Assembly (NCBI RefSeq): GCF_014192335.1
Contig: NZ_JACHXU010000027.1
Span: 62,001-126,000, forward strand
Direction of reading: 5' to 3'
Origin: Aporhodopirellula rubra
GTDB taxonomy: Bacteria; Planctomycetota; Planctomycetia; Pirellulales; Pirellulaceae
Length of the DNA: 64,000 bases
The translations under genes and the position numbers were made by a program. How positions within the stretch are numbered: the first letter of the stretch is position 1; each line of letters begins with the position of its first letter. Shown in pieces: positions 13,588-17,804 of the stretch. The notes below the pieces were generated by a model. That model saw only the letters and a program-made list of their open reading frames with translations. It was not told the origin of the DNA and searched no databases.

Positions 13588-14094
13588 TCAAAGGTTTTTG
13601 TAGTAAGGAATCGGTTTGCCTTCGGCGGTGACCGCGACATGAAAAAAGTTCATCAGTCGCAGCATCGCCCGGAGGTCACCGGGATTGAATAGAGGCCCAT
13701 CAACGAGATGCCCCTCTTCTAAAAATGCAAACATCAGGTCGACTTCAGCCTGCAACTCGCCGTTGCAGTGGCTTGTTCCGCTAACGATCGCCCCGAGACC
13801 TTGCGTCCGACCGAGCCGGACATGGTAGTTCAGAGTGTCGCCGGGTTTTGCAGGTGCATGGTATTTTACCGTTCCGACCTTAGCCAAGACCACGCGTTTG
13901 GTGAATTGGAAATGCTCGTGAACGAGAATTCCACCCACCTGAGCGAGTCCCTCAATGATCAACGTCGGCGGCAGCACGGGGAATCCCAGACTGTATCCGT
14001 CGAGGACTTCCTCGTCGAGCGCAACGTTCTTGATGCCGCTGGCATGCGAACCGCTGACGAATTCGGTGAAACGATCGACCCAGAACCAACGCAT
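13588..14094 (-). CDS. FabZ/FabA-like hotdog protein lacking the catalytic histidine
   Basis: This 168-residue hotdog-fold protein aligns without gaps to the active region of 3-hydroxyacyl-ACP dehydratases: GFPVLPPTLIIEGLAQ corresponds to the FabZ pattern GxPxxPGVLxxEAxAQ. The catalytic histidine position holds Y34 and the glycine of PGV holds P43, while the catalytic glutamate position keeps E48. It is therefore probably inactive as a classical dehydratase, or uses changed chemistry. A regulatory or structural partner of the intact dehydratase at 14524-15048 is an attractive inference, since that protein has H34 and E48 at the same positions. I chose the ATG at 14094: it leaves 4 bp to the ACP gene, whereas the upstream extension overlaps it. 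Confidence 0.82.
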   Translation of the reverse strand: MRWFWVDRFTEFVSGSHASGIKNVALDEEVLDGYSLGFPVLPPTLIIEGLAQVGGILVHEHFQFTKRVVLAKVGTVKYHAPAKPGDTLNYHVRLGRTQGLGAIVSGTSHCNGELQAEVDLMFAFLEEGHLVDGPLFNPGDLRAMLRLMNFFHVAVTAEGKPIPYYKNL

Positions 14095-14098
14095 AAGA

Positions 14099-14488
14099 TT
14101 AAGCGTTGACCTTGCTGCCGACGTAGCTGCACAGGTCACCTACGGTGAGCAGGTTGCCGAAGTCTTGAACTCGTGGGTTTTCTTCGAATTTCGACAGGTC
14201 GGCCCATGGCATCCGGGTTTTCAGTTCGGTCATTCCGTCGGCCGTGACCACGCCGTCTTGGACGTATTGGCTGTTAGTCAAGATGTCTTCAGGCGACAGT
14301 TCTTCGCGAGGGATTTGGATGTCGAATGATTTTTCGAGTTTGAAAACGATATCGAGAAAGTCGATCGATTCGGCACCGAGGTCACCAACGAGGGTGGCGT
14401 CGCGGGTCGCTTCGTCTTCGTCTACTCCGAGAGCATCGACCAGCGCGGCTTGCACCTTTTCAAAAATTTCGTCTTGTGACAGCGACAT
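14099..14488 (-). CDS. Acyl carrier protein with C-terminal extension
   Basis: The first 85 or so residues are an acyl carrier protein: acidic helices and the phosphopantetheine site at S41 in DLGAESIDFLDIVFKLE (canonical ACPs read DSL where this has ESI). It would carry growing acyl chains for the neighbouring synthase and dehydratase. At 129 residues it is about 50 longer than a housekeeping AcpP. The extra part (near 78-129) contains EELSPEDILTNSQYV followed by a helix-rich tail ending LTVGDLCSYV, the piece that normally closes the ACP fold, so the extra residues form an insertion before the last helix. It sits between the two hotdog genes with gaps of 4 and 35 bp. Confidence 0.9.
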   Translation of the reverse strand: MSLSQDEIFEKVQAALVDALGVDEDEATRDATLVGDLGAESIDFLDIVFKLEKSFDIQIPREELSPEDILTNSQYVQDGVVTADGMTELKTRMPWADLSKFEENPRVQDFGNLLTVGDLCSYVGSKVNA

Positions 14489-14523
14489 CGTGCGTTCCTA
14501 TTCTTGGTTTAACTAAAAAAGTA

Positions 14524-15048
14524 TTAGGGGGTCATGGTTGGCGAGGTGTTTTCCCCTGGTTGCACGAGGGCAGCTACAGGAGGGCAATCGCCGTAAAGTT
14601 GGAAAAATTGCTCGCGAGCGAGACGTTTGAGGTCGGTGTCGGTATCAAGATGCTCAGGATCGCCACTAGAGCAGCTTTCTAAAATCAGACGAGCGGCCAC
14701 CGTTGTGCGGTCACCTTTTCGTGCGATGGCCTTCACCGTGGTCATCGGCCCGTCGGTCTTGGAAATCTCGGCTTCGATCGTCAGCGTTTCGCCCGGCGAG
14801 AGGAAATCGCCGAATTTGACGTTGCGGACTTCCCGTACCAAAACCAGGGCGCTGTCGAAGTCCGGAGACATGCGAATTAACCAGACCGCGGCCTGGTGCA
14901 ACGCCTCGAGCATCATCACACCGGGCATGACCGGGAAGCGTGGGAAATGGTCTTGGAGGTACTCCTCATCCGCGGCCAACGTGCGCTCGCCAACCAGCTT
15001 TTGGCCGGGTTCGAGTAGGGTGATGCGATCGAGTTGACTGTATTTCAT
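14524..15048 (-). CDS. 3-hydroxyacyl-ACP dehydratase, FabZ-like
   Basis: This 174-residue hotdog protein keeps the complete FabZ active site: H34 in DHFPRFPVMPGV and E48 in MMLEAL. It would dehydrate 3-hydroxyacyl-ACP to trans-2-enoyl-ACP in the cytoplasm. I start it at the ATG at 15048 (MKYSQLDR); the 12-residue upstream extension has no support. It is the first gene of the four-gene run ending in the ketoacyl synthase, and about 95 bp downstream of the aminotransferase gene on the same strand. The C-terminal 40 residues (after ARLILESC) are an acidic then basic tail not needed for the fold. It may pair with the histidine-less homologue at 13588-14094. Confidence 0.88.
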   Translation of the reverse strand: MKYSQLDRITLLEPGQKLVGERTLAADEEYLQDHFPRFPVMPGVMMLEALHQAAVWLIRMSPDFDSALVLVREVRNVKFGDFLSPGETLTIEAEISKTDGPMTTVKAIARKGDRTTVAARLILESCSSGDPEHLDTDTDLKRLAREQFFQLYGDCPPVAALVQPGENTSPTMTP

Positions 15049-15143: not shown

Positions 15144-16610
15144 CTAACCCAATTTTGCTTTCATTTGGGTCAGGCCTTGGTCGAGCAACGCGATCGCCGC
15201 ATCAATGTGGGCGGTTGTGGTGATCGCCGGTGGGGGAAGGAAACGCATCCGAACCGGTGCTGCCCCGCAGAGGAAACCGAGCAGACCGAGGTCGTAAAGG
15301 ATCCCCATCAACAATTTCGCTTGGTCGAGCGATCCGTCGCCGGGGGTAAAGCCGATCATCATCCCTTCGCCATAAGGGCCCCGAATCAAACCGTCATGCT
15401 TCGCCGCGAGCTGCTCGAGCTGAGTGGCGAAATACTGATGGTTGGCCATATTCGCGCCATCGGCGCCGAAACAGCCGCGTGATTCGAGCTGATCGAGTGT
15501 CGCCAGACCGGTTCGAATCGACGAGGTCGAGCCCGTGAATGTCTGGCTCAAAATCGGGGAGGTGGGATGGAATTCCTTGCGATACAGGGTCGCGCATACC
15601 TGAGTGATTTTGCCCACGGTGACAATGTCGGCGAACGATTCGAGCCCGTAGTGTTGGAACGCGAACGGCTTGCTCGTTCGGGAGAACGTTTGGATTTCGT
15701 CGAAAATGATCGGAATCCCGGCTTCTCGAAGCGGTCCGCATAACGCCGCGAAAAAATCGTGGCTGCCCGCGTAATAGCCGCCTTCGCCCGCAATCGGCTC
15801 GGCCCAGAACGCGGCGTGCTTCTTGGGATATCGGGCGAGCAGGCGTTTCAGCTCGTTAACCGCCCAACGCGTCGAACGTTCGGGAGCATGCGGGTCGAGA
15901 AACGGAAGGTAATCGACTTGAATGGCGAGCGGGATGCCGTCGCGATAGCTGGGCCGATCCGTCAGTGCCGCCAGAGCGATCGATCGCCCGGCGAAGGCGT
16001 TGTCAAACGCGATCACGCGGTTGGCCGGTTGGGCATGGTGAAACGCCAGTTTGAGCGCGTTCTCGTTGGCCATCGCGCCACTGGTCGACAACAGGCCGTG
16101 CTCCAACGGGGCACCCGTCTGGCTCGCGAGCGAGAGCAGCCTGCTCAGCATTTGGACGCTCGGCACGTTCTGTTGCAGGTTGCCCTGCATCACGGTGTCT
16201 TCGATCGCCGCATCAATGCCCGCGTCAATGATCGAGGGGTGAGAGTGCCCGCACCCGTGAACGCCGATTCCACCAATGAAATCCAATTTGACGCTTCCGT
16301 CGGCTAGCTCCACATAGGGGCCGTTGCCGAGCCCCGACGCAAAATAGGGCCACAAAGGTGGACCGCCTCGAGCCCGAACGTACTCCGCCGTGATTGTTTC
16401 ATACGAGTCGCCGAGTTGAGCGTTGGCCGACGCGACGCGGTCCAGCCCATCTGCATGTTCTCGAACCGCCTCGGCGATCAGACGTTTAGCCTCAGCGATC
16501 CGGGGATCGTTCTGCAACGCTGTGGCATGCAACGGGGACGCGTTTTTCTGATCGCTCGGTGCGTCGGCGGGCGACGCGTCTACGGAGGACGAGGCGGCGG
16601 GAGATGTCAT
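15144..16610 (-). CDS. Class III aminotransferase, L-lysine 6-transaminase-like
   Basis: This 488-residue PLP enzyme has the class III features: SGAMANENALK at 177-187, FDEIQTF at 303-309 with the PLP-nitrogen-binding D304, and Schiff-base lysine K334 in VGKITQVCATLY. That last motif resembles lysine epsilon-aminotransferases (GKKTQVCG) more than acetylornithine aminotransferases (GKxxGGG). The likely reaction is transfer of a terminal amino group of lysine or a similar diamine or omega-amino acid to 2-oxoglutarate. Residues 1-35 are a low-complexity Ala/Ser/Pro leader. It stands upstream of the lipid-type cluster on the same strand (about 95 bp), so joint transcription is possible; a role in making an amino-modified lipid is only a guess. 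Confidence 0.8.
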   Translation of the reverse strand: MTSPAASSSVDASPADAPSDQKNASPLHATALQNDPRIAEAKRLIAEAVREHADGLDRVASANAQLGDSYETITAEYVRARGGPPLWPYFASGLGNGPYVELADGSVKLDFIGGIGVHGCGHSHPSIIDAGIDAAIEDTVMQGNLQQNVPSVQMLSRLLSLASQTGAPLEHGLLSTSGAMANENALKLAFHHAQPANRVIAFDNAFAGRSIALAALTDRPSYRDGIPLAIQVDYLPFLDPHAPERSTRWAVNELKRLLARYPKKHAAFWAEPIAGEGGYYAGSHDFFAALCGPLREAGIPIIFDEIQTFSRTSKPFAFQHYGLESFADIVTVGKITQVCATLYRKEFHPTSPILSQTFTGSTSSIRTGLATLDQLESRGCFGADGANMANHQYFATQLEQLAAKHDGLIRGPYGEGMMIGFTPGDGSLDQAKLLMGILYDLGLLGFLCGAAPVRMRFLPPPAITTTAHIDAAIALLDQGLTQMKAKLG

Positions 16611-16850: not shown

Positions 16851-17804
16851 ATGATGGTAACCGCGATGAGCCGCAAACTGAGATTCAATCTGACGAGACT
16901 CCCTTCCACCACGCCAGCGATCGTTGCTTGCGTGATTGTGGTCGCGTGTTCTGGGCGAGCGACCGCTCAGGGCGTTTGGGCCGAACCCGCATGTGGGACC
17001 GAACCGGTTTGTGGCGTGGAGCCAGTTTGCGGTGCCGAACCAGTCTGCGGCGCGGAACCTGTCTGCGGCGCGGAGCCGGTGTGCTCCTGCAACGAACCTG
17101 TTTGCGGATGCGAACCATCGTGCGGGTTCGAACCCTCTTGTGGTCTTGAGCCATCCTGTGGTTTGGAACCGGCATGCGGTTGCGAGCCGGCATGTGGGTT
17201 CGAAACGGGAGGTTGTGGTGAACTCCTCGGTCCAGAGAAAGGCCTGCTCGCCAAAGCCAAATGGAGCAAGGCAGGTCCACTGCACTGCATGCTCGATAAG
17301 GTTGCCGGAGGAATTGAAAAATTGGTCACACATCGATGCAGCATGCCGCGACGGGCCAAACCAGATTGCCAATGTGCGACGTGCTCGCATACCGTCGGTC
17401 ACATGTCCGAAACTTACATCGAGCAAGAGCCGATGTTGATTTCGCCGATGCAAGAGACCGTTCAACCGGTTCCTCATGTTCATCCTGCCGCACCCGTGAT
17501 GCCGGCTCAACCTGCACCACGCACGACGATCCGGCGCGACATGCCCAACCCGCCGACGCTGCCATTGCCTTCGAACAACTTCGACCGTCCCGGTCGTGCG
17601 TTCGATGAATTGAATGACCCCTTTGAAGACGACTCGGCTAGTCACACGGCCCAAGGGCCGCGTGGTATTCTGCAGGCCACGTTCGCACAGGGTGATACGG
17701 AAACGCACAGCCACGCCGATTCCCTGGGTGATTCAGGCGTTGCACGTCGCCCCGAACAGGCTCAACAGGAAGTCGACGTTTACGCGGACTACTTCCGCGA
17801 ATAA
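16851..17804 (+). CDS. Secreted cysteine-rich CGxEP-repeat protein
   Basis: This 317-residue protein has a signal peptide (hydrophobic IVACVIVVACSG ending in ATAQG near residue 42). Residues 48-124 contain about a dozen six-residue units of the form C-G-x-E-P-x, with 16 cysteines in about 76 residues. After it come a basic linker, a second small Cys cluster (DCQCATC near 175-185), a Pro/Met-rich part and an acidic C-terminus. No enzyme motif is visible. Dense cysteine repeats suggest a disulfide-linked envelope or matrix protein, or metal binding; both are inference. An internal ATG at 16866 could be the start. The MBOAT gene follows after 18 bp, so the two are probably cotranscribed. Confidence 0.78.
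   Translation: MMVTAMSRKLRFNLTRLPSTTPAIVACVIVVACSGRATAQGVWAEPACGTEPVCGVEPVCGAEPVCGAEPVCGAEPVCSCNEPVCGCEPSCGFEPSCGLEPSCGLEPACGCEPACGFETGGCGELLGPEKGLLAKAKWSKAGPLHCMLDKVAGGIEKLVTHRCSMPRRAKPDCQCATCSHTVGHMSETYIEQEPMLISPMQETVQPVPHVHPAAPVMPAQPAPRTTIRRDMPNPPTLPLPSNNFDRPGRAFDELNDPFEDDSASHTAQGPRGILQATFAQGDTETHSHADSLGDSGVARRPEQAQQEVDVYADYFRE
16992..17215 (+). repeat. 18 bp coding tandem repeats (CGxEP units)
   Basis: Successive 18 bp units encode C-G-x-E-P-x. The best conserved copies are at 17007-17024, 17025-17042, 17043-17060 and 17061-17078, the last two differing at only two bases. Later units (to about 17215) are more diverged and include CxC variants. The array could expand or contract by slippage or recombination. 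Confidence 0.85.

Follow-up and report, generated by a model that had tools for sequence, protein, structure and literature searches.

A FabZ-like hotdog pair in a conserved cassette of Planctomycetota that probably shares one composite dehydratase site

Two FabZ-like hotdog proteins of the planctomycete Aporhodopirellula rubra, here called H (with His34) and Y (with Tyr34), probably form a FabZ-type heterodimeric dehydratase with one composite active site, half of which comes from Y; the probability of this reading is put at roughly 0.77. Their genes lie in the window, i.e., the whole stretch of 64,000 nucleotides that was analysed, to which all coordinates refer unless another contig is named. 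The observations are a conserved operon, a crossed conservation of active-site residues, natural H–Y fusions and the predicted fold of two of these fusions. The proposed heterodimer as such is well supported by the fusions, by the one-sided invariance of one of its two prospective sites (site 1) and by residue coupling at the other (site 2).

The genes form a four-gene run on the minus strand in the order H, ACP, Y and KAS, with gaps of 35, 4 and 6 nt (Table 1). A sequence-only reading of this DNA, in which Y was the first protein and H the second, had described two hotdog genes flanking an ACP gene in one run. This arrangement is found, and the KAS gene after Y also belongs to the unit. Both H and Y pass the gathering score of the Pfam FabA model (PF07977), and their BLASTP alignment starts at residue 1 and runs past the motif without a gap (31% identity over 100 aa, E 2e-13). 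At positions 34, 43 and 48, Y has Tyr, Pro and Glu and H has His, Gly and Glu, in agreement with the residues first assigned. Pro43 of Y, initially taken as a meaningful mark, loses that weight, as the position is variable (P, S, N, H, A, T, C, G and others).

Table 1. Genes of the cassette and their key residues (window coordinates)
Feature	Position	Strand	Remarks
H, FabZ-like hotdog subunit, 174 aa	14524..15048	-	PF07977 61.1 bits, cut-off 23
His34 of H	14947-14949	-	
Glu48 of H	14905-14907	-	
His51 of H	14896-14898	-	
ACP, 129 aa	14099..14488	-	PF00550 match
Phosphopantetheine Ser41 of ACP	14366-14368	-	Ser41 in 67/67 rows, duplicates included
Y, FabZ-like hotdog subunit, 168 aa	13588..14094	-	PF07977 40.7 bits, cut-off 23
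Tyr34 of Y	13993-13995	-	
Pro43 of Y	13966-13968	-	
Glu48 of Y	13951-13953	-	
Ala51 of Y	13942-13944	-	
KAS II-like beta-ketoacyl synthase, 429 aa	12292..13581	-	fabF model 484.9 bits, below equivalog cut-off 493.75

The catalytic residues of the KAS (Cys179, His319 and His356) are each present in 64 of 64 rows. The ACP carries about 45 extra residues after its core, which are absent from the genome's own AcpP and present in all 13 cassette ACPs aligned with it. A class-III aminotransferase gene directly upstream of the cassette (15144-16610, minus strand) was considered as a member of the unit and rejected, as among 41 loci compared it occurs in the window only, with no homologue beside the cassette in the 40 related loci. 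Further along the window, an open frame on the plus strand (16851-17804) encodes many cysteine-rich repeats of the CGxEPVCG type.

The cassette is conserved among relatives. A Y-like match is present in 147 of 149 family genomes, although other FabZ proteins may account for some of the weak best matches. The 41 loci analysed in detail (40 chosen from the family listing, and the window) comprise 34 complete H-ACP-Y-KAS sets, 3 sets without KAS, 1 without H, and 3 with an H–Y fusion. The 80 named loci, which were those kept out of 404 relatives, comprise 58 H-ACP-Y-KAS sets, 1 such set with two KAS genes, 6 H-ACP-Y sets, 8 fusions and 7 partial sets; the related named loci belong to Planctomycetota, among them Pirellulaceae, Rhodopirellula and Blastopirellula. 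Beyond the family, 294 genomes of the phylum were sampled and 40 loci picked from their better-scoring matches; H, ACP and Y occur in that order in 37 of them. In 15 of the 40, H and ACP are separated by a gene that belongs to a single reductase cluster. Two members of this cluster were scanned and are FabG-like, with one scoring above and the other below the 3oxo_ACP_reduc cut-off. The remaining three outside loci (L098, L103 and L111) are divergent, with two KAS genes and a degenerate second hotdog, and possibly represent a separate branch in which the partner has decayed further.

The Cys-His-His triad is present in 84 of the 96 KAS rows longer than 250 aa from the loci compared, and 9 of the other 12 are chain-length-factor-like. 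In nine loci (L085, L090, L092-L095 and L105-L107), a KAS has Glu, Asp, Asn or Ser for the catalytic Cys. The chain-length-factor-like KAS adjoins another KAS in seven of nine loci; at L105 and L107, each on a short contig, no other was seen. These loci belong to other families of the phylum. A type II polyketide synthase (PKS) of the KS-CLF type has a KAS partner without the active Cys, whereas the single KAS of the window cassette has it.

In FabZ, each active site takes its His from one subunit and its Glu from the opposite chain. Active sites comprising residues of both subunits are described for hotdog dimers (PMC2698920). With the crossed geometry of FabZ, an H–Y dimer would have two unlike sites: site 1 consists of His34 of H with Glu48 and Ala51 of Y, the latter standing one turn after Glu48, and site 2 combines residue 34 of Y with positions 48 (Glu) and 51 of H. 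The two sites differ in conservation. At site 1, His34 of H, Glu48 of Y and Ala51 of Y are invariant across all 134 non-redundant H/Y pairs, with 0, 0 and 0 changes on the tree. At site 2, Glu48 of H is present in 129 of the 134 pairs and replaced by Gln in 5, with two changes on the tree (three on the Y-only tree). Position 34 of Y holds Tyr in 81 pairs, His in 49 and other residues in 4, with seven changes if all states are counted and three for Tyr and His only. On the Y-only tree, which was built without the motif columns, residue 34 has four changes between His and non-His and seven among all states, and Glu48 of Y has none.

Other samples agree with this pattern. When divergent loci and duplicates are kept, His34 of H is present in 108 of 109 rows and Glu48 of Y in 111 of 112. 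In the named loci, His, Gly and Glu occupy positions 34, 43 and 48 of H in 76 of 77 proteins, the other one being cut off, and Glu48 of Y is present in 76 of 76, residue 34 of the same Y proteins being Tyr in 58, His in 15 and Trp, Glu and Cys in one each. One of the Y proteins with His is that of Blastopirellula marina DSM 3645 (L174). As a base rate, the genome's other FabZ type, encoded on contig 34, keeps His and Glu at the two positions in all 30 loci read, which had the best scores in a search of 60 family genomes.

Losses at site 2 come from either side, by Gln in H or by a non-His residue in Y (Tyr, Trp, Cys, Glu or Asn for His), and site 1 is not hit at all. The five loci with Gln48 in H (L090, L093 and L105-L107) keep His in the Y orthologue, and the two kinds of site-2 damage thus exclude each other. 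Where an orthologous Y has His34 and its partner H has Glu48, both sites are complete by these residues, indicating that the asymmetry is not universal. The invariance of Glu48 and Ala51 points to Y as the most likely source of one half of the working site. The sequence-only reading had offered an active/inactive heterodimer; the heterodimer is supported by the fusions, the one-sided invariance and the coupling, but the term inactive does not fit the invariant residues of Y.

H and Y also vary together at site 2. In a scan of corrected mutual information (101 x 100 variable column pairs, 111 non-redundant rows), the highest of the 10,100 inter-protein scores (z 8.4; next 5.5) belongs to residue 34 of Y and residue 51 of H. 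Like Ala51 in Y, residue 51 of H stands one turn after Glu48. In the 81 pairs with Tyr34 in Y, it is Phe in 31, His in 25, Tyr in 20, Val in 2, Gln in 2 and Thr in 1, i.e., Phe, His or Tyr in 76 of 81; in the 49 pairs with His34 in Y, it is Val in 27, Thr in 19, Ile in 2 and Ala in 1, without exception. Independent 34/51 transitions number one pair on supported branches and three across the tree as a whole; with so few, a sign test cannot separate the coupling from shared ancestry. Its weight would come from outranking every other column pair in these rows and from its place next to Glu48, where the crossed geometry predicts a contact.

H and Y also occur as a single chain. Fusions in one open frame, with H first, were found in at least 7 of 149 family genomes, a set that overlaps with the eight among the named loci, and each fusion has His34 and Glu48 in its H half and Tyr34 and Glu48 in its Y half. 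AlphaFold2 models were obtained for the fusion L133 (pLDDT 89.1, pTM 0.90) and the more distant fusion L139 (pLDDT 81.8, pTM 0.82). As Y was mostly placed on the wrong half when fusions, H and Y were aligned together, the models used fusions with Y (A2, 45 rows) or fusions with H (A4, 38 rows). The L133 model is a double hotdog, and its best matches over most of its length are acyl-CoA thioesterases and PKS dehydratase (DH) domains. It matches PksJ DH1 (8qk4) with Z 19.2 over 233 aligned residues (rmsd 3.6) and a thioesterase double hotdog (6vfy) with Z 20.0, which is as high as for the DH domains. Because thioesterase and PKS double hotdogs lead the fold matches together, the fold alone does not decide the chemistry.

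For the separate H and Y proteins, we infer an assembly, a catalysis, a substrate and a lipid product as follows. A canonical dehydratase site would be built from His34 of H and Glu48 of Y, with Ala51, and the H–Y dimer would dehydrate 3-hydroxyacyl chains on the dedicated ACP, working with the cassette KAS. The mirror site, with Tyr34 of Y and Glu48 and His51 of H, would have lost dehydratase chemistry and be plugged or remodelled by aromatic side chains; this second site would have been altered first and lost later. All 81 pairs with Tyr34 in Y, the fusions among them, retain Glu48 in H, and this is not expected of a site 2 that is simply dead. The pocket may therefore have a structural or new role; H may also form a homodimer, or Glu48 may pair with Tyr34.

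The same retention of Glu48 would fit a rival reading with two independent homodimers, in which H is a normal FabZ and Y uses Tyr and Glu for a new activity on the shared ACP, as a thioesterase, decarboxylase or isomerase. Such activities have precedents, in that some hotdog subfamilies work with an acidic residue alone (PMC2698920) and the hotdog enzyme AmcE is a decarboxylase (PMC10698177). However, natural fusions of H and Y occur, Glu48 of H is lost only where Y keeps His, and no other pair of columns is as strongly coupled as residues 34 of Y and 51 of H. Also, residue 34 of Y can be Trp, Cys or Glu with Glu48 kept, suggesting that Tyr is not a required catalyst. Taken with the fusions, these features make two separate homodimers improbable.

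Considerably less probable still is a self-sufficient H accompanied by a Y that has no catalytic function and binds the carrier or serves as a scaffold. His is lost in a large part of the family and the Y gene adjoins the ACP gene, as such a role would allow, but the invariance of Glu48 and Ala51 in Y is unexpected for a scaffold; the carrier-binding role proposed for Y at the outset is disfavoured on the same ground.

The idea that Y is a decaying pseudo-enzyme or the product of a sequencing error can draw on the variability of residue 43 and of the loop around residue 34, but is hardly tenable given that Tyr recurs in 81 of 134 non-redundant pairs, in open reading frames with strict conservation at other positions. 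A sequencing error or recent mutation at Tyr34 was rejected, as the cassette is conserved and Tyr is found in most family members read. His in close orthologues had been named as the sign of such an event; His appears in only 5 of 70 rows, all from other genera (L059, L061 and L063-L065). Family members with His mostly form one group on the Y-only tree (support 87), with L200 outside it. Outside the family, 39 of the 40 loci have His in their best Y match, the exception being L110 with Asn; the second Y matches of the divergent L098 and L111 carry Arg and Pro at this position. Beyond the five rows from other genera, His is a mark of more distant orthologues, and the replacement by Tyr is therefore old.

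The composite-site heterodimer may be part of a longer history. In a tentative extension, against which the odds run, the H/Y family would be a living series leading to single-site double-hotdog dehydratases, from both sites intact by residue (most orthologues read outside the family), through damage to one side of site 2 (Tyr or Asn in Y, or Gln in H), to the H–Y fusion. Site 2 of the Tyr lineage would in this case be a coupled pocket of Tyr34, Glu48 and an aromatic residue 51 with a new role, e.g., holding the growing chain or the carrier.

FabZ is among the known systems closest to the pair. Like FabZ, H and Y are PF07977 hotdogs with the His and Glu of the dyad between them, and their sequence matches in the PDB are mostly named FabZ or beta-hydroxyacyl-ACP dehydratase. 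The nearest PDB match for H is 7qv0, titled anammox amxFabZ with amxACP; a search of the open-licence literature found no paper on amxFabZ. The FabZ dimer is built from a single protein and has two equal sites, whereas H and Y seem to have one complete site between them. H has both His and Glu in the same chain, as in FabZ, and Y lacks the His. Both proteins score below the FabZ equivalog models TIGR01750 and NF000582 (Y 75.5 and H 75.2 vs. 155.15; Y 78 and H 79.7 vs. 113), a test that does not discriminate, since the genome's two other FabZ-like proteins are also below (85.1 and 95.7 vs. 113).

Hotdog heterodimers with a single site are already known, namely HadAB and ApeI/ApeP. ApeI/ApeP, an aryl-polyene dehydratase, is described as a single-site heterodimer that replaces homodimeric FabZ in a gene set with KS and ACP (PMC8041823). 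The present case differs in its H-ACP-Y-KAS operon and in an asymmetry that can be traced across the phylum, ApeI/ApeP being compared here by description; no ApeI- or ApeP-named model was matched by H or Y at E 0.1 in Pfam and NCBIfam scans. Mycobacterial HadAB and HadBC and the MaoC-type ChsH1-ChsH2 likewise combine two unlike hotdogs with one site per dimer (PMC4491049; PMC11321319). In HadAB, however, both catalytic residues (His and Asp) are described as coming from HadB (PMC4491049), whereas conservation points to a dyad split between H and Y, even though H carries both residues. The families also differ, HadAB being MaoC and H/Y FabA/FabZ: Pfam matches to E 0.1 are FabA and 4HBT for Y and FabA and AfsA for H, with no MaoC model.

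In the double-hotdog DH of type I PKS, as in the proposed H–Y dimer, the N-terminal hotdog gives the His and the C-terminal one the acid. This split of His and acid is stated for the AviM PT, in which the dyad has the orientation seen in DH domains (PMC9135731). PKS DH domains are numerous among the fold matches of the L133 fusion, with 8-17% identity in the structural alignments. Unlike H/Y, they use Asp as the acid rather than Glu and are domains of megasynthases rather than free-standing proteins. Rosetta-type hotdog fusions such as LpxC-FabZ are recorded in the survey of Dillon and Bateman (PMC516016), and extra, partly atypical FabB/F genes are reported for Kuenenia and Rhodopirellula baltica in a 2009 survey (PMC2649909). 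Among the titles and abstracts listed by searches of an open-licence library, no description of an H/Y pair or of this cassette of Planctomycetota was found. As far as these searches show, the new features are the planctomycete pair, its split dyad with one of two sites damaged from the H or the Y side, and a present-day series in which the two proteins are separate, degenerate or fused.

The genome (8.55 Mb, 75 contigs) encodes other fatty-acid genes. A separate KAS and ACP elsewhere pass the NCBIfam equivalog cut-offs (fabF 619.3 vs. 493.75; acyl_carrier 111.8 vs. 70.45), whereas the cassette KAS and ACP lie below them (484.9 and 56.8) and pass broader subfamily models. Two further FabZ-like genes and a FabI-like gene are also present elsewhere, all three below equivalog cut-offs. 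The separate acpP-fabF disfavours a housekeeping fatty-acid synthesis role for the cassette. Contig 11 of the same genome (L118, 8422-10136) has a further KAS below the fabF cut-off that overlaps an ACP-like frame, with an FAD oxidoreductase-like frame downstream, as judged by eye. A dedicated elongation unit of H/Y, ACP and KAS is the best explanation of the cassette. Gene sets with KS-CLF, ketoreductase and dehydratase and without enoyl reductase are described as making polyenes (PMC8041823; PMC10698177), and by analogy the cassette may build an unsaturated chain, which is a guess. Five FA_desaturase matches in the genome do not favour the cassette as the cell's only route to unsaturation.

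With the H/Y pair, a conserved lipid- or polyketide-building cassette of Planctomycetota gains a testable enzyme logic. Its intermediates, with two potentially complete sites, with one site broken from either side, or fused, serve the question of how symmetric homodimers turn into asymmetric enzymes, and the same question bears on the dehydratase domains of polyketide synthases.
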